Source: a virus
Strand: one strand, 5' to 3'
Length of the DNA stretch: 40,034 nucleotides
IMG/VR virus record: IMGVR_UViG_3300042389_000626
Location: 1-40,034 of that record
Shown here: positions 15,682 through 29,727 of the stretch, one piece after another
Layout of the letters: each line of letters opens with the position of its first letter
Position numbering within the stretch: position 1 is the first letter of the stretch
Notes under the pieces: model-generated
Told to the model about the DNA's origin: nothing
Databases searched by the model: none
What the model saw: only the letters and a program-made list of their open reading frames with translations
Translations under genes and position numbers: made by a program

Positions 15682-17379
15682 TTATTTACTAATCAAAAAT
15701 TTACCCAATACTAAATAATCCATATCACAATTATGAAATGTCCAAATTGCTTTTTGTGGGTCATTTGTCATTGTATGGTCTTTTAAGTTAAACGATGTAT
15801 TCAATAGAATAGGTGTTCCTGTTAGTTTTTCGAACTCCTTTAATAAGTCATAGTAAAGTGGGTTATCTTCTCTTTTAAGTGTCTGTATCCTTGCAGAATT
15901 GTCAACATGGGTTACTGACGGAATGTTTACATCCTTTTTAACTTTGACAACCTGATTCATATAGGGAACATCTTCTTCTGATAGAAAATACTTTTGATAA
16001 TCTTCATGTGTAACCGATGGAGCAAATGGTCTAAACATTTCTCTCTTTTTGACAACCTTATTAATTCTATCTCTAATGTCGGACAAATGTGGATTACCTA
16101 ATATAGAACGATTACCTAATGCTCTTGCACCAAATTCGGTTCTACCTTGAAACCAACCAACTATATTACCTTCTTCAATTAATTTTGCAACCTCTTTACA
16201 CAATGTCTGATGGGTATCATGCATTATAACCTTACTTCTATTGTTTTGTAATATAATTTTAAGTAATTCAGGACTACTCCACTCTTCACCCAAATATGGA
16301 GATTGATTATCACCACCTTTTACTTTTGGATTACCCAATAGAATGTGATGTTGATATAAACATGCACCTATTGCAGAACCCGCATCCGATGGAGCAAATG
16401 GAATCCAAACATTTTTGATTGACGTAGCTGTTTTTATTTTACCATTGGCAGTTCCGTTGTATGCACATCCACCGCCCAACACCAAATTCTCACATTCCCA
16501 AATATTGGTAATTCTATTGATAATAAAATATAAAGCACTTTCATACCATTTTTGTAATGATGCAGCTAAGTCTTTGTGATGTTGTTCAATGGGTTCATCT
16601 TTAAATCTTGGTGGAAACCCAATCAAATCAATTAACTTATCATTAAACATATCGTTATCGGATGTATGCCATGTAAAGTAAGACATATCCATCTTTACGA
16701 TGTCAATTTCACCACCAGTAGTAACAACTTTGTCAAATATGTTATTATATTTTTGATTATCACCATATGGTGCCAATCCCATTACTTTATACTCACCTTC
16801 GTTTGGTTTAAATCCTAAATAAGCAGTAAATGCCGAATAGATTAAACCCAATGAATGTGGAAAGTGTAATGTTTGTATTTTATGAAAGCCTATGTCATCA
16901 CACATTGCTGCATATATAGTATGTGATTCACCAACTCCATCAATTGATAAACCTATTGCTTTATCAAATGGTGATGTGTAGTAAGATAGTGCTAAATGTG
17001 ATAAATGGTGTTGTGTATAAGTAATAATTCCTTCATATCCAATAGATTTCAATATTCCTTTTAAATTACCTTCGGTTTGATTCCATCGTTTATTAAAGTT
17101 TCTCCATTTCATTGGAAATCTTAAACCACCCCATTTACCAATTGTTTCTTTAACTCTTTCATATTTTAAATTCGGGTCTTCATACCAACAAACCATATCA
17201 ATCTCATCAATTGTTATCTTTGTGTATTCCAAACACCATTGAATTGCTTTAAACGGAAAAGAACTATCATGTTTAATTCCAGATAGTTTCTCTTCTTCAA
17301 TAGCACAAATTACTTTACCATCTATAACGATTGTAGCTGCTGAATCGTGGTAAAATCCTGATAAACCTAATTGTATCAT
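15682..17379 (-). CDS. Carbamoyltransferase, NodU/TobZ/HypF-type
   Basis: A 565-residue protein, the usual length for NodU/TobZ enzymes. The N-terminal Kae1-like domain shows GLSGFYHDSAATIVIDG, the metal-binding HHLSH at residues 124-128, SIDGVGES near 147 and LVLGGGCAYNGTANGKI near 300. The C-terminal YrdC-like half has VGWFQGRTEFGARALGNRS and REMFRPFAPSV. These enzymes make carbamoyl-adenylate from carbamoyl phosphate and ATP and move the carbamoyl group to a hydroxyl of a sugar, antibiotic or nucleoside. The phage substrate is unknown; a surface glycan or modified base are the main options. It lies between baseplate genes and the sigma factor, four bases after the latter's stop codon. All visible catalytic motifs are intact. 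Confidence 0.93.
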   Translation of the reverse strand: MIQLGLSGFYHDSAATIVIDGKVICAIEEEKLSGIKHDSSFPFKAIQWCLEYTKITIDEIDMVCWYEDPNLKYERVKETIGKWGGLRFPMKWRNFNKRWNQTEGNLKGILKSIGYEGIITYTQHHLSHLALSYYTSPFDKAIGLSIDGVGESHTIYAAMCDDIGFHKIQTLHFPHSLGLIYSAFTAYLGFKPNEGEYKVMGLAPYGDNQKYNNIFDKVVTTGGEIDIVKMDMSYFTWHTSDNDMFNDKLIDLIGFPPRFKDEPIEQHHKDLAASLQKWYESALYFIINRITNIWECENLVLGGGCAYNGTANGKIKTATSIKNVWIPFAPSDAGSAIGACLYQHHILLGNPKVKGGDNQSPYLGEEWSSPELLKIILQNNRSKVIMHDTHQTLCKEVAKLIEEGNIVGWFQGRTEFGARALGNRSILGNPHLSDIRDRINKVVKKREMFRPFAPSVTHEDYQKYFLSEEDVPYMNQVVKVKKDVNIPSVTHVDNSARIQTLKREDNPLYYDLLKEFEKLTGTPILLNTSFNLKDHTMTNDPQKAIWTFHNCDMDYLVLGKFLISK

Positions 17380-22137: not shown

Positions 22138-23202
22138 TTAGATTAAAGATTTTTTCAAATCTATCAATTCATACATATTATGAAAAACATAAGGATTGGT
22201 GGCCACCTTTTTAAATTCTTCTAAAAATAACATATGTTCTGGATGAGTTGCATTACCTACATCTATTAATTTAAATTGGCCGTCCGTAAATGTTCCCCAA
22301 TTGGTAATTCTGCCAAAAAATACTTTTGTTTTATTTTTGAATATAGAATATATTAAATTTAAAAAAGTTTCCATTTCATTATAATTTGAGTCTTGAACTA
22401 CAAAAGAACACTTAACACTCTGTAAAGATTTTATGGTTGAAATAAAATTTAAATTTGAAATTAGATTATCCCAATTACCTCCCAACCTTGTTACATTTTC
22501 ATAAGTATATTGAGTACCAGCATCAATACTAATTTCACAACTGTGAACATATTTATGTATATTTGGCATACTATCCCACATTTCTTCATTCCACAAACTG
22601 GCATTGGTATGTAGATGTATTGATTTTAAATTTGGATATTTTTTTGCATTGAAATTTCTTAAATAACTTCTATATGATACGGATGCAAATGGGTCTGCTG
22701 TACCAGAACAATATATTGTTTCAATCGAATCGGAATATGCATTTTCTATTTCTTCTATTGTAAGATTTACACTTTTTATCTTGTCACTATTGGCCACAAT
22801 CATATCTACTCTACATGATGGACATTTATAATTACAAGTTCTATCAAATGACATTTGAATTATTTTGGGGCCCACCGGAATTATACCAGTTTGGGTATCG
22901 TAATTCATTTTCATTTCATCACTCAAATTATCTATGTGAATAATTGGGCCGGAAATACTTTTATCATAATGAATTAATCTAGCTAAAAATGGACATTGTT
23001 TTTTATCACAATAACGATACGAACCATCCATTACAGACTTTCGTATTTCGATTGCTTCAGCTGAATTCCATAATTCTTTTATGGGAACCCCATTAGGTAA
23101 TTCTTTTTTCAGCCAGCTGGCACAACACATAAAATTTTTATTTTCATGTATTTCTAATGCTTTAAACGGAACCGTACAAACATATTGTTTTAAATCTATC
23201 AT
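22138..23202 (-). CDS. Radical SAM protein with N-terminal SPASM-like Cys region
   Basis: A 354-residue protein. The radical SAM cluster motif CNYKCPSC (Cys123, 127, 130) follows MSFDRT, the expected first strand of the TIM-barrel. The N-terminal 75 residues carry YVCTVPFKALEIHENKNFMCC and IKELWNSAEAIEIRKSVMDG, then YCDKKQCPF. This is the pattern of a SPASM domain (auxiliary Fe-S ligands plus the LWNS/IR motif), but placed before the radical core rather than after it. SPASM enzymes modify peptides or sugars by SAM cleavage. The stop codon is next to promoter B, and the start overlaps the SGNH gene's last base, so it ends the accessory operon. The substrate is unknown; the small ORFs or the Cys-tailed protein upstream are candidates. 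Confidence 0.88.
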   Translation of the reverse strand: MIDLKQYVCTVPFKALEIHENKNFMCCASWLKKELPNGVPIKELWNSAEAIEIRKSVMDGSYRYCDKKQCPFLARLIHYDKSISGPIIHIDNLSDEMKMNYDTQTGIIPVGPKIIQMSFDRTCNYKCPSCRVDMIVANSDKIKSVNLTIEEIENAYSDSIETIYCSGTADPFASVSYRSYLRNFNAKKYPNLKSIHLHTNASLWNEEMWDSMPNIHKYVHSCEISIDAGTQYTYENVTRLGGNWDNLISNLNFISTIKSLQSVKCSFVVQDSNYNEMETFLNLIYSIFKNKTKVFFGRITNWGTFTDGQFKLIDVGNATHPEHMLFLEEFKKVATNPYVFHNMYELIDLKKSLI

Positions 23203-23870
23203 TATATTAATTTATCTTTTTCACATAATGAATTAATAGTTTTTCTTAATGTATCGTCACCAATCATTTCCAAAAACTTATTCGTTAATTGTTTATGCCC
23301 TAATTCCGAATAATGTGCATCCACTATTAAACCATCGGTTTCATTGGTAATTGTAGAAAATTCACTATCACCCCATATTTTAATACGCATATCCCAAAAA
23401 GGTGTCCATTGAATCAATATCATATCTTTAAATAACCAATTCAAGAATATTATTCTTTTACATATTTCATCGTAATAAATTGGTAGTGTACGATTTACAA
23501 GTACTTCTTCTATTGTAGATTTAGATATAAATGATAGAGTAGGATATTGTTTTAAAGAAGGAATCACCGTTACAAATTTATTATTATCATTACCTAATCT
23601 AAACCTTTGCATTGAAGACCACCCTATGATAACGATATCTCCCTTATTGATTAATGGAACATTTGTATAAATCGTTTCAAATATAGTATCGTTACCTAAT
23701 GCACCTTCGGCGAGGTGTTGGACTTCTAACCCTAACTCATCACCTATAATATCACCAAATGTTTTAGGTACATATCCTTTCCATTGAACATAGGGTAATG
23801 ACCAAGAAGCATATAATTGTCTTTCAAATGGAGTAGAAAACGAATCACCGAATATCCAAAGTTTTTTCAT
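23202..23870 (-). CDS. SGNH/GDSL-like protein
   Basis: A 222-residue protein. It opens MKKLWIFGDSFSTPF, block I of SGNH hydrolases with the nucleophile Ser in GDSF. IVIIGWSSMQRFRLG around residues 80-95 sits where block III is expected, and VDAHYSELGHKQLTNKF near the end gives the Asp-x-x-His-like block V (DAHYSELGH). SGNH proteins act as esterases or acetyl/acyl transfer enzymes on carbohydrates. Two more related proteins occur within 5 kb, so the family has expanded here. It shares one base with the radical SAM gene and overlaps the sulfotransferase gene by four bases, a tightly coupled operon. Confidence 0.8.
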   Translation of the reverse strand: MKKLWIFGDSFSTPFERQLYASWSLPYVQWKGYVPKTFGDIIGDELGLEVQHLAEGALGNDTIFETIYTNVPLINKGDIVIIGWSSMQRFRLGNDNNKFVTVIPSLKQYPTLSFISKSTIEEVLVNRTLPIYYDEICKRIIFLNWLFKDMILIQWTPFWDMRIKIWGDSEFSTITNETDGLIVDAHYSELGHKQLTNKFLEMIGDDTLRKTINSLCEKDKLI

Positions 23871-24529
23871 ATTAATTTATTTAGCTTTTCTTCTATTCTT
23901 ACTTTTTTAAGTGGTGAATTAATCCACCCATTAATACACATTTCATTATATTCTATCTCACAATATTCATTTAAACATTTTATTGTTTCAATATCTTTAT
24001 TGACAAATAAATCTTCATAATAAAATAATGGATAACCTTTATCTGAAATAACTTTTAACTCCAAAGCTTTTGATTCTAAATGATGTACTAATTCTATTAC
24101 ATCGTTCTCATCATCCTCTGTTAATTCATAATATTTTTGTGTATGCCAAGTTTGTAAAGGTGTTCTATTTTTAGATATTTTAAGATGAAATGCATATGAT
24201 TCAGCTTGTAATCTTTTATTTTTTCTTTCTAATACTATTATTTTATCAAAAAACGAATAAAACCATTTCCAATAATCTTCCACACTTTTAAAAGATTCAT
24301 ATGGGTAATTATCACTATCTATAAATGTTTTTATTAATATATTTTTTTTATTTATTATTTCATTAATTGATTTTAGTTGATTGTATGTATCATCTCTATT
24401 CGGATTTGCAAAATTGAATGGTTCAAAGAAAGAATCATATTTTTTACGTTCTCTAGCTAAACAACATTTTAAATAATAAAATGTTGATGTGGAACCACTC
24501 CTACCATTACATACTATTGCAATTCTCAT
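23867..24529 (-). CDS. Sulfotransferase-like protein
   Basis: A 220-residue protein. It starts MRIAIVCNGRSGSTSTFYYL, matching the 5'-phosphosulfate loop of PAPS-dependent sulfotransferases (R-S-G-S-T). DKIIVLERKNKRLQAESYAF in the middle corresponds to the 3'-phosphate binding R...S motif. These enzymes move sulfate from PAPS to hydroxyls of glycans or small molecules. It is compact compared with typical families (about 250-300). The ATG overlaps the stop of a 28-residue ORF (ATGA), and its own stop overlaps the SGNH start. Loss or change of activity cannot be excluded from sequence. Confidence 0.78.
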   Translation of the reverse strand: MRIAIVCNGRSGSTSTFYYLKCCLARERKKYDSFFEPFNFANPNRDDTYNQLKSINEIINKKNILIKTFIDSDNYPYESFKSVEDYWKWFYSFFDKIIVLERKNKRLQAESYAFHLKISKNRTPLQTWHTQKYYELTEDDENDVIELVHHLESKALELKVISDKGYPLFYYEDLFVNKDIETIKCLNEYCEIEYNEMCINGWINSPLKKVRIEEKLNKLI

Positions 24530-24612
24530 ATAACAATTTTATTAGTTTTTAAAGGTTTATCATAGAATTCCATCCTTCTTTTTGCAAAAAATTTATTTAT
24601 AGAAAATTCCAT
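24526..24612 (-). CDS. Tiny ORF (28 residues) coupled at both ends
   Basis: A 28-codon frame starting MEFSINKFFAKRRMEF and ending KTNKIVI. Its ATG overlaps the stop of the upstream SGNH gene (TAATG) and its TGA overlaps the next ATG (ATGA). Such exact coupling on both sides suggests it is translated, or at least serves to hand ribosomes on. It is strongly basic. It has no Cys and no known motif. It could be a leader peptide or simply a coupling frame. Confidence 0.45.
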   Translation of the reverse strand: MEFSINKFFAKRRMEFYDKPLKTNKIVI

Positions 24613-25436
24613 TATATTAAATAATTTTTACTTTTATTTATATCAGTTTCCATTAAATTTGATTTTAATATAAATTTATACAATTCTTCTGCAATTAATT
24701 TATATCCTATATTATTTGGATGTTTGCCGGCTACGGATTCGTTCCAATGATTATTATCTTCCCAAACGTATCTCCTTTTTGAATCAATCAAAAAGTTTGA
24801 AAATGTTTTTTCTTTATACCCCCAATATCTACTATTATCAATTAAATTACTATTATCAACTTCACCGATTATATCTTTACTAATCATAGTATCAAATGCA
24901 TCACAAAAAATATATTGTATTCCCATTTGTTTAAATATAAATTGTAAGTGTAATATATAGTTTTGATTTACGATATCATAATATGGTTTACTAAATAAAT
25001 TAGATATATAATAGTATCTAAATTCCTTTTCTACTCTATTATAATTTACATTATTACCATTAATACCATCAAAGATATATTTAATTAGATGTTGTTTACT
25101 CTTATATCGTTCACCCCACATATGTAAAGAATCTTCGTTTGGAAAAAATGGTAAATTGTCTCTCAAAGATGATGACCACATAATAACAACAAAATCATCT
25201 TTGGTGATGATTTCATTTTTTAATTGATAACAAATTGAATTAAATATTGCGTTATTTGAAAAAGAAGCTACACCATAATTAATAAATTGGCAATCCAAAA
25301 AATCCGATAGGTGTTTAGGCCAACAATATTTTTGTCGTATTATTGTCCTTTCCGATTCAATAGATTTACTAAGTTCTTCACTTAGATTTCCACCCACACC
25401 TTCCGTCCAACTATCACCAAAGGTAAATAGTTTCAT
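24612..25436 (-). CDS. SGNH/GDSL-like protein
   Basis: A 274-residue protein. Block I is KLFTFGDSWTEGVGG (Ser in GDSW), DDFVVIMWSSSLRDNLPFF lies near residues 85-100, and block V appears as HWNESVAGKHPNNIGYKLI close to the C-terminus, with the HPNxxGY His. The block III Asn/Gly spacing is unclear. It is longer than its paralogue at 23202 and of similar lineage. A short 38-residue ORF ends four bases upstream, and the stop codon overlaps the start of a tiny ORF. A likely role is acyl or acetyl removal or transfer on a glycan; the substrate cannot be read. Confidence 0.78.
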   Translation of the reverse strand: MKLFTFGDSWTEGVGGNLSEELSKSIESERTIIRQKYCWPKHLSDFLDCQFINYGVASFSNNAIFNSICYQLKNEIITKDDFVVIMWSSSLRDNLPFFPNEDSLHMWGERYKSKQHLIKYIFDGINGNNVNYNRVEKEFRYYYISNLFSKPYYDIVNQNYILHLQFIFKQMGIQYIFCDAFDTMISKDIIGEVDNSNLIDNSRYWGYKEKTFSNFLIDSKRRYVWEDNNHWNESVAGKHPNNIGYKLIAEELYKFILKSNLMETDINKSKNYLI

Positions 25437-25440
25437 AGTA

Positions 25441-25557
25441 TTATTGTGTTACATCTACATATATAAGATTTGCAACTTCTTGCATAATAGTTACTATGTT
25501 TGTGTCTGTGGTTGAGTTAGTTAAAACAATTTCACTTTTAATTATTCTTGGTTTCAT
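25441..25557 (-). CDS. Tiny ORF (38 residues)
   Basis: A 38-codon frame starting MKPRIIKSEIVLTNSTTDTN and ending NLIYVDVTQ. It lies four bases before the SGNH gene and 34 bases after the Cys-tailed 508-residue protein, so it fits the operon spacing. The sequence alternates beta-like and helical segments and has no Cys. No family was recognised. It would be a candidate small substrate or regulator for the adjacent enzymes, but this is inference. Confidence 0.55.
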   Translation of the reverse strand: MKPRIIKSEIVLTNSTTDTNIVTIMQEVANLIYVDVTQ

Positions 25558-25591
25558 ATTTTTATTTTTAAATAAGTAATTTAATTATAGT

Positions 25592-27118
25592 TTATTTTTC
25601 TACGCCGCCGGCACAGCCCGGACAATCACCACAGTAGTATTTGGGAAAGCAACCACCATAACAATAAATACCACATGCGTTATGTTGTACAAAAAATAAT
25701 CCTAATGTAGAATCTGCCAAACTCAAATATACATCACTCGGTTCTACGTTTAACTCATAAACTTTTCTATTAACATAAACAATTTCTAAATCTATAATTT
25801 TAGATTTAGTAAGTGTATTATTACTATCATAAAATACAATTGAATCATTTATTCTAAATCTATTGGTATCTGAAAAAGTAGTTCTTAATGTATCGTATTC
25901 TTCAATATACATAACGGATGTTGGTAAATCTTCATATACTATACCATTTTCCAATGTAACTCTAATCATTGTGGTAGTTCTGGTTCCACTACTTATATGT
26001 ACCACTTCAGTTGACCCGGTTGTAAATGTTGTTAAATCTGTGTTGTAACTACCTGAGTTAACATTTGGTAGATATGTTGGGTTATCAATTGTACCCTCAT
26101 CCTCAGGAATCCAATCAAATTTCATAGTTTTGATTGTGTCTCCTACCAAAATTTCATTTGGTAATTTTAGTACATTATCAGGATATAACAATGGTGTATC
26201 ATCATCTAATATATATTGTTTCGAATATAGCATGGTTTCCGGACTTTTAGTCATCCATAAAATCCTACTGTTTGCATTCATTAAACCATTTTCATCATAT
26301 GTAGTTTCAAATTGATTATTCTTAATACCAGCGGTCATCGTATATGAACCCAAATGTAAACAACTTAAATTACCACCATATAAAATATCTAAACTTCTAA
26401 TTACCCCAATTTTCTCATTTATAAAATTTTCTGAATTTATGTGATATTCTTCGATAAATTCCGAATCGGTAACCGAAGTTTTCAATGTTGTTAAATCTTC
26501 TAATGATTCTATTTTATAAAATTTTGGATATACATTATAACCGGTGTGTGGTAGTCTTGTTTTTACAATATAATTTGGTGTGTTTCCAACGGTTGTGTGT
26601 AAATCGATTAATTTATCAATATTTAATTCTGTATCAATTGATGAACTATAATAAAAATTTGTAGAATATGATTCATTAGATATTAGTCTATGAAAATTAA
26701 CCTTATCTTTAGTATATTCTTCATCTACAATTGCCGTTGCATCATACGATGTTCTAATTATTAAAGTATTATCATTATCCTCAATAAATGGAACGGTAAC
26801 AGAACCTTTAGGAAGCATATGAATTTGGAATGTTCCACTTAACTCCTCCATGATTTCTGACATTTTATCTTTTAAAGAAGTCTTCGGAAATTCAGGATTT
26901 TTATAATTAACTATATTTTCATTTGAAATTAAATTACCATCTGTATAAATAAAATGTAAATTATTAATAGAATTATCTATTAAAAATTGTTTAAATGTCA
27001 CCCAATCAAGGCTTAATATGATTTCATTATGAACATCAACATTAGTATTTGTTTCAATTATTTTTAAATTTCCTTCAGAATCTCTTAAGAAGTCGGTTCC
27101 AATTATAAGTGCCTTCAT
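25592..27118 (-). CDS. ATP-grasp-like + degenerate Hint-like protein with six-Cys tail
   Basis: A 508-residue protein with three parts. Residues 1-290 resemble a permuted ATP-grasp: GNLKIIETNTN (the Glu-x-Asn-x-Asn type metal motif, residues 16-26), IIRTSYDA near 120, the ATP-Lys candidate YIVKTRLPHTGYN (Lys186) and FIEEYHI near 221-227. Residues 315-480 resemble a Hint/intein-type autoprocessing fold: EILVGDTIKT, MIRVTLENGIVYEDL, VYELNVEPSDVYLSL, then FFVQHN with His479-Asn480. The usual first Cys and block-B His are not seen, so it may be degenerate. The tail from Ala481 has Cys at 482, 486, 490, 496, 499 and 502. An ATATTTAT element lies 18 bases upstream of the ATG, suggesting late expression. 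It may be a virion protein or a modified-peptide carrier. The domain calls come from pattern reading only. Confidence 0.6.
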   Translation of the reverse strand: MKALIIGTDFLRDSEGNLKIIETNTNVDVHNEIILSLDWVTFKQFLIDNSINNLHFIYTDGNLISNENIVNYKNPEFPKTSLKDKMSEIMEELSGTFQIHMLPKGSVTVPFIEDNDNTLIIRTSYDATAIVDEEYTKDKVNFHRLISNESYSTNFYYSSSIDTELNIDKLIDLHTTVGNTPNYIVKTRLPHTGYNVYPKFYKIESLEDLTTLKTSVTDSEFIEEYHINSENFINEKIGVIRSLDILYGGNLSCLHLGSYTMTAGIKNNQFETTYDENGLMNANSRILWMTKSPETMLYSKQYILDDDTPLLYPDNVLKLPNEILVGDTIKTMKFDWIPEDEGTIDNPTYLPNVNSGSYNTDLTTFTTGSTEVVHISSGTRTTTMIRVTLENGIVYEDLPTSVMYIEEYDTLRTTFSDTNRFRINDSIVFYDSNNTLTKSKIIDLEIVYVNRKVYELNVEPSDVYLSLADSTLGLFFVQHNACGIYCYGGCFPKYYCGDCPGCAGGVEK

Positions 27119-27136
27119 AGTTTTTATATGTTTTAT

Positions 27137-27144
27137 ATAAATAT
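27137..27144 (-). promoter_or_regulatory. ATATTTAT element upstream of the ATP-grasp/Hint gene
   Basis: ATATTTAT followed by ATAAAAC lies 18 bases before the ATG of the 508-residue protein, separate from the upstream promoter-like element C. Confidence 0.4.
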
Positions 27145-27163
27145 AAGTATTTACTAAATAATA

Positions 27164-27448
27164 CTAAATTATTGATTTTGATTTTTTATTTATAGTGTCT
27201 ATATAGGTACTATCTATGTCCGACCACTTATTTAATGGACATGAGTTTTTTGTTTTTTCTGTAAATACTTTTTTTTGAATAGAACATAAACATTTTTTAC
27301 AATATTCATCTTGTGTAACTCTTCTATTTTTTCCATAATGTTCACATCCTAAACATATCTCATATCGTTTTTCTGCTAATTCTTTTTGTTCAGGTGAAGG
27401 ATTAAACGATATTATCCACGAACCTATAATTTCTCTTATTTTATTCAT
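27164..27448 (-). CDS. Small Zn-ribbon-type protein
   Basis: A 94-residue protein. It carries ICLGCEHYG and EYCKKCLCSIQKK, two Cys-x-x-Cys pairs, then SCPLNKW. This is the pattern of small phage and bacterial zinc-ribbon proteins such as the DUF6171 type. The N-terminal IREIIGSWIISFNPSPEQKE is helical. Zn-ribbons of this sort usually bind nucleic acid or act as adaptor modules. It is preceded by promoter-like element C, 24 bases upstream, and followed after 45 bases by the ATP-grasp/Hint gene, which has its own ATATTTAT element. The function is unassigned. Confidence 0.75.
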   Translation of the reverse strand: MNKIREIIGSWIISFNPSPEQKELAEKRYEICLGCEHYGKNRRVTQDEYCKKCLCSIQKKVFTEKTKNSCPLNKWSDIDSTYIDTINKKSKSII

Positions 27449-27472
27449 AGTAATTTATTTTCACTATATTAA

Positions 27473-27505
27473 CTAATATACTACAAATATTTTACAATAC
27501 CAAAT
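27473..27505 (-). promoter_or_regulatory. Promoter-like element C (ATTTGGTA-N14-TAGTATATTA)
   Basis: ATTTGGTA and TAGTATATTA are separated by 14 bases on the minus strand, with one base (A for C) different from the consensus second box. It ends 24 bases before the Zn-ribbon ATG and partly lies within the end of the SGNH gene. Confidence 0.7.
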
Positions 27506-28203
27506 TTTTTTATAATATACTTACCAAACAATTTGTTGTATGATGAACTCCAATGATGGTCATTTTTATGTCCAACATATCCATTGGTTTCATACCATTC
27601 GTCAGTTAAAGTATGCCATTTTCCTACCTCACTTTCAAATTGTATCTTATCAAATATAAAATCACTTTTAATTCTCATAGTATCCCATGTAAAAACAAAA
27701 TTTTTAGATGGTGTTAATTCTATTAAATTTTCTATAATTTCTATACTATTATAGATGGCAGCGTCCGTAGAATTTATTATTTGTTGTATTTCGGTTTTTT
27801 TAATCCATTCCGCCGATGTATATTCTTTACCCCAAAATTCAATATTCCAAATATCTGCCATTTGAGGGCCGCAGAATCGGTTTATAATTTTTATTTTTTC
27901 ATTATATGTTTTAGTTATCCAATGAGATTTTTCAACAGGTATTCTTGTTCGTTGAAAAAATGGTAAACAAATTATAAGTAAATCGGTTTCTTTTAAATGT
28001 TTAATTAATTTAATCCAATTGTCTATAATCGTTTGTACATCTCTGTTTGCTTGACCATCTATGGTTGTATTATATTTACTAATGTTTAATCCATTTCTTA
28101 CTACTTCCGGCCAAAATGAATTATTAGACCAATTTTTTGAATAAGTGCATGGAGCTGCGAATGAATCACCTATAACAAATAATCTTTCTATTTCATTTTT
28201 CAT
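27481..28203 (-). CDS. SGNH/GDSL-like protein
   Basis: About 240 residues, read from MKNEIERLFVIGDSFAAP. A longer frame exists upstream (from 28236), but its first codons fall inside a G-rich dispersed repeat and give a Pro/Asn-rich N-terminus, so it was rejected. Block I is VIGDSFAAP with Ser in GDSF, and a DLLIICLPFF strand lies near residues 68-77. HHWSSSYNKLFGKYIIKKF close to the C-terminus holds the likely catalytic His (in GHKNDHHWS). It is the third member of this family in the cluster. A 65-base gap carrying the G-rich repeat separates it from the upstream sulfotransferase gene. Confidence 0.75.
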   Translation of the reverse strand: MKNEIERLFVIGDSFAAPCTYSKNWSNNSFWPEVVRNGLNISKYNTTIDGQANRDVQTIIDNWIKLIKHLKETDLLIICLPFFQRTRIPVEKSHWITKTYNEKIKIINRFCGPQMADIWNIEFWGKEYTSAEWIKKTEIQQIINSTDAAIYNSIEIIENLIELTPSKNFVFTWDTMRIKSDFIFDKIQFESEVGKWHTLTDEWYETNGYVGHKNDHHWSSSYNKLFGKYIIKKFGIVKYL

Positions 28204-28215
28204 ATAATATAAATT

Positions 28216-28264
28216 GGGGTGGGGGTTGGGGGGCAAAGTCGTTTTTTAAGAAAATTTTTTAGTA
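28216..28264 (+). repeat. Dispersed G-rich repeat, copy X
   Basis: Read on the plus strand it starts GGGGTGGGGGTTGGGGGG, continues CAAAGTCGTTTTTTAAG and ends AAAATTTTTTAGTAT. It matches copies at 38113-38159 and 37356-37400, which lie in the opposite orientation. The G tract could form a quadruplex on the plus strand and is exceptional in this AT-rich genome. Confidence 0.7.
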
Positions 28265-28268
28265 TCCC

Positions 28269-28931
28269 CTATTGATAGTTGTAGTAATTGTGTAGGGTTT
28301 GGTGATTTTTCAAAAAAGTTAATAACAAATCATATTTAGTTTTTAATTGATTATAATCCCACATAGGTACACTATCCTTTTCATCTCTTAACATTCTACT
28401 CAACCAAAAACTATCCCAACCAGCCAGTTCCATTAAACTATTTCGTGACTCTTGAGGTATAAATTTTAAAATATCAGTTAAATTATTTATACCCACCGAA
28501 CTCCTATCTTGATATAAATCAGGATTATGTGTTTCATCTTTAAATAGTGTAGATAAATCTTTTAATTCTATAAATTTAAACCCTACTTTATTCCATATAG
28601 GATATAATTTTAAATATAGGTTAGATTTCCAATGAGTACCATTACCCAATAGGTATTGGTTTACATGGTCATTTAAAGTATGGTCTTTACAATTTAAAGC
28701 AAAGTCGGTAACCAATCCGGATAGCATATGTTCGGTCACATCTCTATATACAAATATGGTATCTTTTGTTACATACTTTTCAATATCTTCTATATCAAAC
28801 GAACAATAATTTGGTTTTCGGTAACAAGTTTGGTTATCCATAAAACGAGTTCCACATTTTAAAGGAGCAATTATTTCAGGACCACGTTTAAACTTAAAAT
28901 GACGTAATTGTTTTGCAAGAACTTTTTTCAT
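28269..28931 (-). CDS. Sulfotransferase-like protein
   Basis: A 220-residue protein. EIIAPLKCGTRFMD near residues 18-31 corresponds to the phosphosulfate-binding loop (P-x-x-G-T), and TIFVYRDVTEHMLSGLV near 55-71 to the R...S motif of the 3'-phosphate site. The remainder is helical, with a W-rich C-terminus. It is a close paralogue, in layout, of the next gene upstream (28928-29572), and they overlap by four bases (ATGA-type). Family assignment is from motifs only. The acceptor is unknown, but the two tandem copies suggest different positions on the same glycan or peptide. Confidence 0.72.
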   Translation of the reverse strand: MKKVLAKQLRHFKFKRGPEIIAPLKCGTRFMDNQTCYRKPNYCSFDIEDIEKYVTKDTIFVYRDVTEHMLSGLVTDFALNCKDHTLNDHVNQYLLGNGTHWKSNLYLKLYPIWNKVGFKFIELKDLSTLFKDETHNPDLYQDRSSVGINNLTDILKFIPQESRNSLMELAGWDSFWLSRMLRDEKDSVPMWDYNQLKTKYDLLLTFLKNHQTLHNYYNYQ

Positions 28932-29572
28932 ATTATATTTCGATGTAAGTTTGACACAATAGATGATTTCAATGGATTTTTTGTAACTCCCATTGATAGT
29001 TTATTATAAAATTCAGTTTCTCTTTTAACTATTTCCATTAATTTGTTCCATTCTATTGGATAATCTAATTTCATCATTTCTACTATTTCTTCTTTATTCA
29101 TCCAATTAGAACGACCTTTGAATTGAAATTCCTCGTAATCAAATATAGGTATCTTATAACCCAATGAAATTAATAATGTAGAAAGATTTTTTAAATCAAT
29201 TAATTTTATATCAACATTACATTGGATATAAAGATTATATAGTTTTTCCAATATACCACTACTCCAATGACCATTTAGTCTATCTCCATCTCCATCTATA
29301 TTAAAAAAAGAAAAGACTATATCGGAAATTGGTGTATTAGAATCATATGAACACACCACTTCGGTATGTAACGCAGAAACCAAATTTTCCATTGGGTCTC
29401 TATACAAATAATAAACCGATTTATCAAACCAATCCGGTTGTGAACATATTTCATTTATTGGTAGATTATAGTTTAAAGGAAATAGTTTTTTCAAATAACG
29501 AGTTCCATGTTTAAATGGAACAATTATAACTACTTTATTTGTAGAATCTAAAAAGTATTTTACATTTTTCAT
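28928..29572 (-). CDS. Sulfotransferase-like protein
   Basis: About 214 residues from MKNVKYFLDS. Earlier in-frame ATGs at 29623 and 29602 overlap the 48-residue gene upstream, so the start eight bases after that gene's stop is preferred. KVVIIVPFKHGTRYLKKLF has the phosphosulfate-loop form, and YYLYRDPMENLVSALHTEVV carries the R-x-P...S motif of the 3'-phosphate site. It is laid out like its neighbour at 28269. A sulfate-transfer role is inferred from these two motifs, with the acceptor unknown. Confidence 0.74.
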   Translation of the reverse strand: MKNVKYFLDSTNKVVIIVPFKHGTRYLKKLFPLNYNLPINEICSQPDWFDKSVYYLYRDPMENLVSALHTEVVCSYDSNTPISDIVFSFFNIDGDGDRLNGHWSSGILEKLYNLYIQCNVDIKLIDLKNLSTLLISLGYKIPIFDYEEFQFKGRSNWMNKEEIVEMMKLDYPIEWNKLMEIVKRETEFYNKLSMGVTKNPLKSSIVSNLHRNII

Positions 29573-29580
29573 ATTAACCT

Positions 29581-29727
29581 TTATTTGGGGTTTCTCCACC
29601 ATTTTTTCCTCTCTATATACCAAAACGGAAACTTACACACCCAATAGATAGATATACCACAGGCAGCAAGGAAAATGAGAGGAAACATCATTATAACAAT
29701 AAAGATATCATATAATCTCTTAACCAT
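29581..29727 (-). CDS. Tiny membrane protein, possible lipoprotein (48 residues)
   Basis: A 48-codon frame. Residues 1-23 read MVKRLYDIFIVIMMFPLIFL then AAC, i.e. a short basic start, a hydrophobic core and a lipobox-like L-A-A-C with the Cys at position 23. The rest is aromatic and basic (WVCKFPFWYIERKKWW). It could be a small lipoprotein, for example a spanin outer-membrane subunit or an exclusion protein, or a plain membrane protein. Its start is five bases after the 358-residue protein's stop, and the sulfotransferase start follows its stop by eight bases. The tight fit supports it as real. Confidence 0.6.
   Translation of the reverse strand: MVKRLYDIFIVIMMFPLIFLAACGISIYWVCKFPFWYIERKKWWRNPK

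Follow-up and report, generated by a model that had tools for sequence, protein, structure and literature searches.

The gene described here (Table 1) lies in a viral window, i.e., the whole 40,034-nt stretch of DNA that was analysed, and its product is probably, at a probability of about 0.6, a precursor protein of the phage that releases a small, disulfide-rich peptide from itself. In the proposed mechanism, a Hint-fold domain that has lost its N-terminal nucleophile and kept its closing His-Asn would cut at its C-terminal border only, and cyclisation of Asn480 would free a hypervariable mini-peptide with six or eight Cys. The permuted ATP-grasp-like domain in front of it is likely to form, in an ATP-dependent reaction, an amide or ester bond on the precursor itself, on the peptide or on a partner. 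A microprotein encoded downstream would be an obligate partner and a 95-aa Cys protein a near-constant one, while tagged oxygenases, sulfotransferase-like proteins, Trp halogenases, radical SAM proteins and SGNH-like proteins are probable tailoring enzymes that a common receptor would recruit. The most likely use of the product would be display on the virion or delivery to the host surface. Reduced to cutting at its C-terminal border, a Hint domain would serve as a natural device for peptide release in one step.

Table 1. Coordinates in the window of the precursor gene, its parts and its neighbours.
Feature	Position	Strand	Basis or remark
Precursor gene, 508 aa	25592..27118	-	Single ORF; permuted ATP-grasp-like + Hint-fold + Cys-rich tail
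ATP-grasp-like domain, aa 1-290 (putative)	26249..27118	-	D9/E22/N24 hairpin first; K186, E224, R241 after
Hint-fold domain, aa 301-480 (predicted)	25679..26218	-	Without block-A Cys and block-B TxxH; Foldseek and profile matches
His479-Asn480, predicted cleavage after Asn480	25679..25684	-	N 75/75, H 74/75
Predicted released six-Cys peptide, aa 481-508, ACGIYCYGGCFPKYYCGDCPGCAGGVEK	25595..25678	-	Even Cys count, Cys enrichment
38-aa microprotein, MKPRIIKSEIVLTNSTTDTNIVTIMQEVANLIYVDVTQ	25441..25557	-	Conserved micro-ORF after precursor stop
94-aa Cys-rich (zinc-ribbon-like) protein ending KSKSII	27164..27448	-	Upstream of precursor; family and tag
SGNH/DUF6071-like enzyme ending KNYLI	24612..25436	-	Pfam DUF6071 E-value = 6.7e-8, Lipase_GDSL 0.0014
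Sulfotransferase-like P-loop protein ending LNKLI	23867..24529	-	RSGSTSTFYYL N-terminal motif by eye; no Pfam match
SGNH-like protein ending EKDKLI	23202..23870	-	GDS motif by eye; no Pfam match
Radical SAM (twitch/SPASM-like) protein ending KKSLI	22138..23202	-	N_Twi_rSAM and Pfam Radical_SAM matches
Neighbouring protein ending HRNII (weak tag form)	28928..29623	-	ORF list

The protein belongs to a large and previously undescribed family, which is a new Hint-fold family of phage proteins. At least 98 distinct family sequences, many of them full-length, were collected with the DNA pattern YDTTAx[IV]D followed by a profile search, earlier finds being counted; since YDTTA was part of the scan pattern, residues 125-132 are to some extent invariant by construction, which does not apply to the other conserved residues discussed here. 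Near relatives in IMG/VR are 87-88% identical to the window protein over the full length, those of a further clade 58-62%, and the family tree has several deep clades. Alignment A6, consisting of the window protein and 75 distinct relatives (76 rows), spans 25-88% identity to the window protein with a mean column identity of 30%. All members found sit in viral contigs (up to 336 kb) and are proteins of freshwater and marine phages. Searches with the window protein in Pfam, NCBIfam, PHROGs, PDB sequences and cultured phages gave nothing significant. For the latter, no relatives appeared at E-value <= 1e-5 with the window protein as query or at E-value <= 1 with a distant member, and two queries against 84,980 bacterial and archaeal genomes returned no family members. 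No paralogues of the precursor were found inside the same phages, and the architecture is not described in the literature searched, subscription papers being outside its scope. An earlier note, made from the letters alone, had read in this ORF the residues ETNTN (22-26), IIRTSYDA, K186, FIEEY, HN (479-480) and six Cys, and all of them are present, on the minus strand; it did not see how large the family is, that the number of Cys is even, that a microprotein is obligate or that the neighbouring enzymes share a C-terminal tag.

The Hint fold rests on an AlphaFold2 model computed from 76 sequences (mean pLDDT 85.4, pTM 0.83); an earlier model from 13 close sequences had a pLDDT of 40, and its fold search already indicated Hint. 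The best 50 Foldseek matches listed against the PDB were all Hint domains (hedgehog, inteins and bacterial intein-like domains), with hedgehog 1at0 at the top (E-value = 2.6e-8) and BIL 2lwy and the class 2 intein 2jmz also listed. A sequence profile searched against the PDB placed inteins first (KlbA intein 2jmz, E-value = 8.6e-4). Additionally, one relative matched PT-HINT (E-value = 2.9e-4), and Hint (PF01079) and Intein_splicing gave E-values of 0.028 and 0.011, respectively; none of the proteins reached the curated cut-off of the BIL type A/B or PT-HINT profiles, and the window protein had no match to them. On the model, the family has the Hint fold, as the earlier note had supposed.

Block A is recognisable, reading PKLLDTDLVEMADGTFKTALxLxVGD in many relatives and YILDDDTPxLYxDGxxK in the clade of the window protein. 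Its Cys, which had been suspected to be missing, occurs in none of the 76 sequences, the aligned position being occupied by K, H, I, D, V, F or, in 5/76, S. The block-B TxxH is likewise missing: most members have D397-x(3)-[S/C/T/A], with Ser or Cys mostly replacing the His, and a His stands one column earlier in 10/76. The block-F His is kept in 27/76. The residues for Hint C-terminal cleavage are present, namely the terminal Asn (75/75) and the preceding His (74/75). Across residues 295-480, the columns conserved at 93% or more are D397, D425, L465, H479 and N480 only. The junction of HN with the Cys tail is not a product of chance: in an alignment with a mean column identity of 30%, HN and the first Cys persist in 74-75 of the 75 relatives. 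The +1 position, on the contrary, holds 13 residue types (A, G, Y, P, V, S, T, L, I, R, Q, F and E; A in the window protein), so that the family departs from the Cys, Ser or Thr that inteins require there. This pattern, with no block-A Cys and a variable +1, argues against an N-terminal acyl shift and splicing, and splicing or ligation by the Hint domain was rejected because the nucleophiles are lacking. Of the Hint reactions, only one still has its residues, namely one-sided cleavage at the C-terminal border through cyclisation of the Asn, and this reading, raised as one option in the earlier note, is the one that we would predict. The reaction could proceed slowly or depend on a partner, since the block-B His is mostly lost and the block-F His is found in 27/76. 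One member (L104:4798-6708), on a very long branch, is alone in carrying Ser-Asn in place of His-Asn; its tail is long and Cys-rich, without a recognised S74 domain.

The same losses could also be read as those of a catalytically dead spacer in a fibre-type virion protein, with the Cys tail as an attached receptor-binding tip. Apart from the missing N-terminal nucleophile and block-B His, such a reading draws on a Peptidase_S74-type domain found behind the Cys region in nine relatives (above the Pfam cut-off in L100, weaker or recognised by eye in the others) and on fibre-like genes of 1240-1476 aa located downstream in three genomes. Peptidase_S74 is a self-cleaving chaperone of phage fibres, and the domain is absent from the window protein and from most relatives. 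We consider a dead spacer unlikely, as it gives no reason for the Asn to persist in 75/75 and the His in 74/75 sequences while most Hint positions drift. The S74 domains are nevertheless the main pointer to a role in the virion and also count in favour of the self-releasing precursor, and the earlier suggestion of a self-processed virion protein gains support from them. In the window protein's own clade, L022:9501-9743 bears an S74-type domain, acquired separately, that by eye is like those of the distant S74 clade, and the module has therefore probably been exchanged between clades.

The tail of the window protein, with Cys at 482, 486, 490, 496, 499 and 502, is representative of a conserved feature and not a peculiarity of one sequence. 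In 65 of 75 tails there are 26-56 residues beyond the Asn, and Cys makes up 19.8% of these short tails vs. 0.5% of the body. The Cys count is even in 63/65 of them (six, n = 35; eight, n = 27; ten, n = 1), the remaining two having seven. Gly, Pro, Trp and Tyr are frequent in the tails, whose charges are few and which are nearly devoid of His (0.2%). Where two bodies are at least 75% identical, identity averages 86% for the body and 57% for the tail, a comparison that takes in a truncated tail (L103) in a few of the pairs. Such a pattern fits rapidly diversifying disulfide mini-proteins, and the tails are probably disulfide-bonded mini-peptides. In aquatic phages they make up a natural library of diversified mini-peptides rich in Cys, one that cultured-phage collections lack.

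The N-terminal half was assigned from its residues. D9, E22 and N24 are conserved in 75/75 sequences, K186 and R241 in 76/76 and E224 in 69/76, and the spacing D9-x12-E22-x-N24 is the same as that in DdlB, D257-x12-E270-x-N272 in DdlB numbering. When the profile of this half was searched against the PDB, the only two matches at E-value <= 10 were both ATP-grasp carboxylases, aligned on aa 9-40 (E-values = 0.78 and 1.6), and when 157 E. coli ORF translations were scored, DdlB ranked first and AccC second. The best 50 Foldseek matches listed, being Hint only, contained no ATP-grasp. In known ATP-grasps the E-x-N hairpin comes last, while here it comes first and is followed in order by the Lys, the hinge Glu and the Arg, suggesting a circular permutation; searching with the unpermuted profile gave no PDB match and brought no gain, and the case for a permutation is one of residue order and spacing. 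Taken together with the weak profile matches, these residues make it quite probable that this half is a circularly permuted ATP-grasp-like domain, in agreement with the ligase-like module that the earlier note had described. Because the metal and ATP residues are conserved, the domain may be active. Peptide ligases of the R2K clade, which also occur in phages (PMC4431377, PMC7824862), are no more than a lead.

Of the two tiny ORFs pointed out earlier in this cluster, one (38 aa) proved to be a conserved gene that follows every member. In 75/75 members, a micro-ORF 24-49 codons long begins 4-54 nt past the precursor stop, compared to 69/421 (16%) of control genes, and its pN/pS is about 0.13, a rough count over non-independent pairs. 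There are at least four sequence types of the microprotein, split by clade.

Concerning the enzymes nearby, the radical SAM, SGNH-like and sulfotransferase-like genes run in the same direction as the precursor. The place in the core of the system that the earlier note gave to radical SAM is not supported, as it is an optional neighbour present in 17/69 loci. In the window, the radical SAM protein matches NCBIfam N_Twi_rSAM (E-value = 7.2e-14, under its cut-off) and Pfam Radical_SAM (E-value = 1.9e-5). Oxygenase-like proteins (cluster 2) occur in 56/69 loci, sulfotransferase-like proteins (cluster 3) in 50/69 and Trp halogenases (Pfam E-value = 5.7e-95) in 8/69, and all these counts are lower bounds because the flanks differ in length. 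The tagged flavin-dependent tryptophan halogenase genes are located at L060, L079, L097, L121, L125, L128, L139 and L173. Further away in the window, at 15682-17379, there is a NolO-like carbamoyltransferase (PHROG E-value = 4e-119), homologues of which lie near the precursor in 17/69 loci.

Twelve neighbouring families end in K-x-x-K-[ST]-[LI]-[IL] (window 22138-29623; loci L002-L173), including 2OG-Fe(II) oxygenase-like, sulfotransferase-like, radical SAM, SGNH-like and Trp halogenase proteins as well as the 95-aa Cys protein. A terminal [ST]-phi-phi is found in 62% of 370 proteins of the tag families, which were picked for having the tag, vs. 2.9% of 407 other neighbours. In a 238-kb relative, the strict tag is found on 7/325 ORFs, of which six lie at 94-97 and 116-123 kb, the second of these stretches surrounding the precursor. 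The Ser of the tag is encoded by both TCN and AGY codons and all three stop codons occur, so the tag appears to be selected at the protein level; translational coupling was rejected as its cause on the same grounds. The motif is that of a class I PDZ ligand, and a search of ten phage records for a PDZ domain as the receptor gave none over the cut-off. Assembling a modification pathway through a C-terminal tag common to otherwise unrelated enzymes would be new.

These enzymes invite a RiPP-type reading, in line with the peptide release and modification system of the earlier note, in which radical SAM proteins and others would introduce thioether or other linkages into the Cys core, with the Hint domain acting as the leader peptidase. 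The common tag on radical SAM, 2OG-Fe(II) oxygenase-like, Trp halogenase and sulfotransferase-like genes in the vicinity agrees with it, and so does the presence of Trp in the tails of 8/8 halogenase loci vs. 55% of the others, a comparison confounded by descent as seven of the eight belong to one clade. Such a product seems rather improbable to us, given that radical SAM is confined to 17/69 loci, that the even Cys count indicates disulfides and that the sets of enzymes differ greatly among loci. A metal-binding tail (zinc or iron-sulfur) serving the fused or neighbouring enzymes, to which CxxC-like spacings in many tails and the zinc-ribbon-like 95-aa neighbour (63/69 loci; 94 aa in the window) might point, is more doubtful still, since clades differ freely in the spacing and number of their Cys (6, 8, 10) and the tails are hypervariable with 0.2% His, all of which is unusual for a metal site and usual for disulfide mini-proteins.

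Returning to the self-releasing precursor, it is conceivable, and we put it forward tentatively, that its relatives form a widespread phage system making diversified and decorated disulfide-rich peptides with a permuted ATP-grasp, a C-cleaving Hint domain, an obligate microprotein and tailoring enzymes docked through K-[ST]-[LI]-[IL]. Such a system would be loosely comparable to conotoxin biosynthesis, with the products used on virions or against the host. Tail-fibre proteins with Peptidase_S74 share the C-terminal S74-type chaperone with nine relatives, though not with the window protein. ATP-grasp ligases (DdlB, biotin carboxylase, R2K/CDC123 clade) share D-x12-E-x-N, the ATP-binding Lys, the hinge Glu and the Arg, but in this family the hairpin is N-terminal (permuted), the domain is fused to Hint and there is no Pfam match. 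Class 2 inteins (MjaKlbA, PDB 2JMZ) similarly lack Cys1 and keep the terminal Asn; however, they splice via a +1 nucleophile, whereas the +1 residue here is any of 13 types. In its mode of action, the protein would be like the BIL and pretoxin-HINT domains of CdiA and polymorphic toxins, where Hint also ends in His-Asn without a fixed +1 nucleophile and a C-terminal effector is cut free at the Asn (PMC9086364, PMC7664689), a cleavage that is predicted here. For instance, a BIL domain ending in WVHN is thought to free the C-terminal toxin of Pseudomonas CdiA (PMC9086364). The window family differs in the absence of the N-terminal Cys, the fusion to an ATP-grasp-like domain, the phage origin of the gene and the obligate microprotein, and, while those domains free a toxin enzyme, it would free a Cys-rich mini-peptide.
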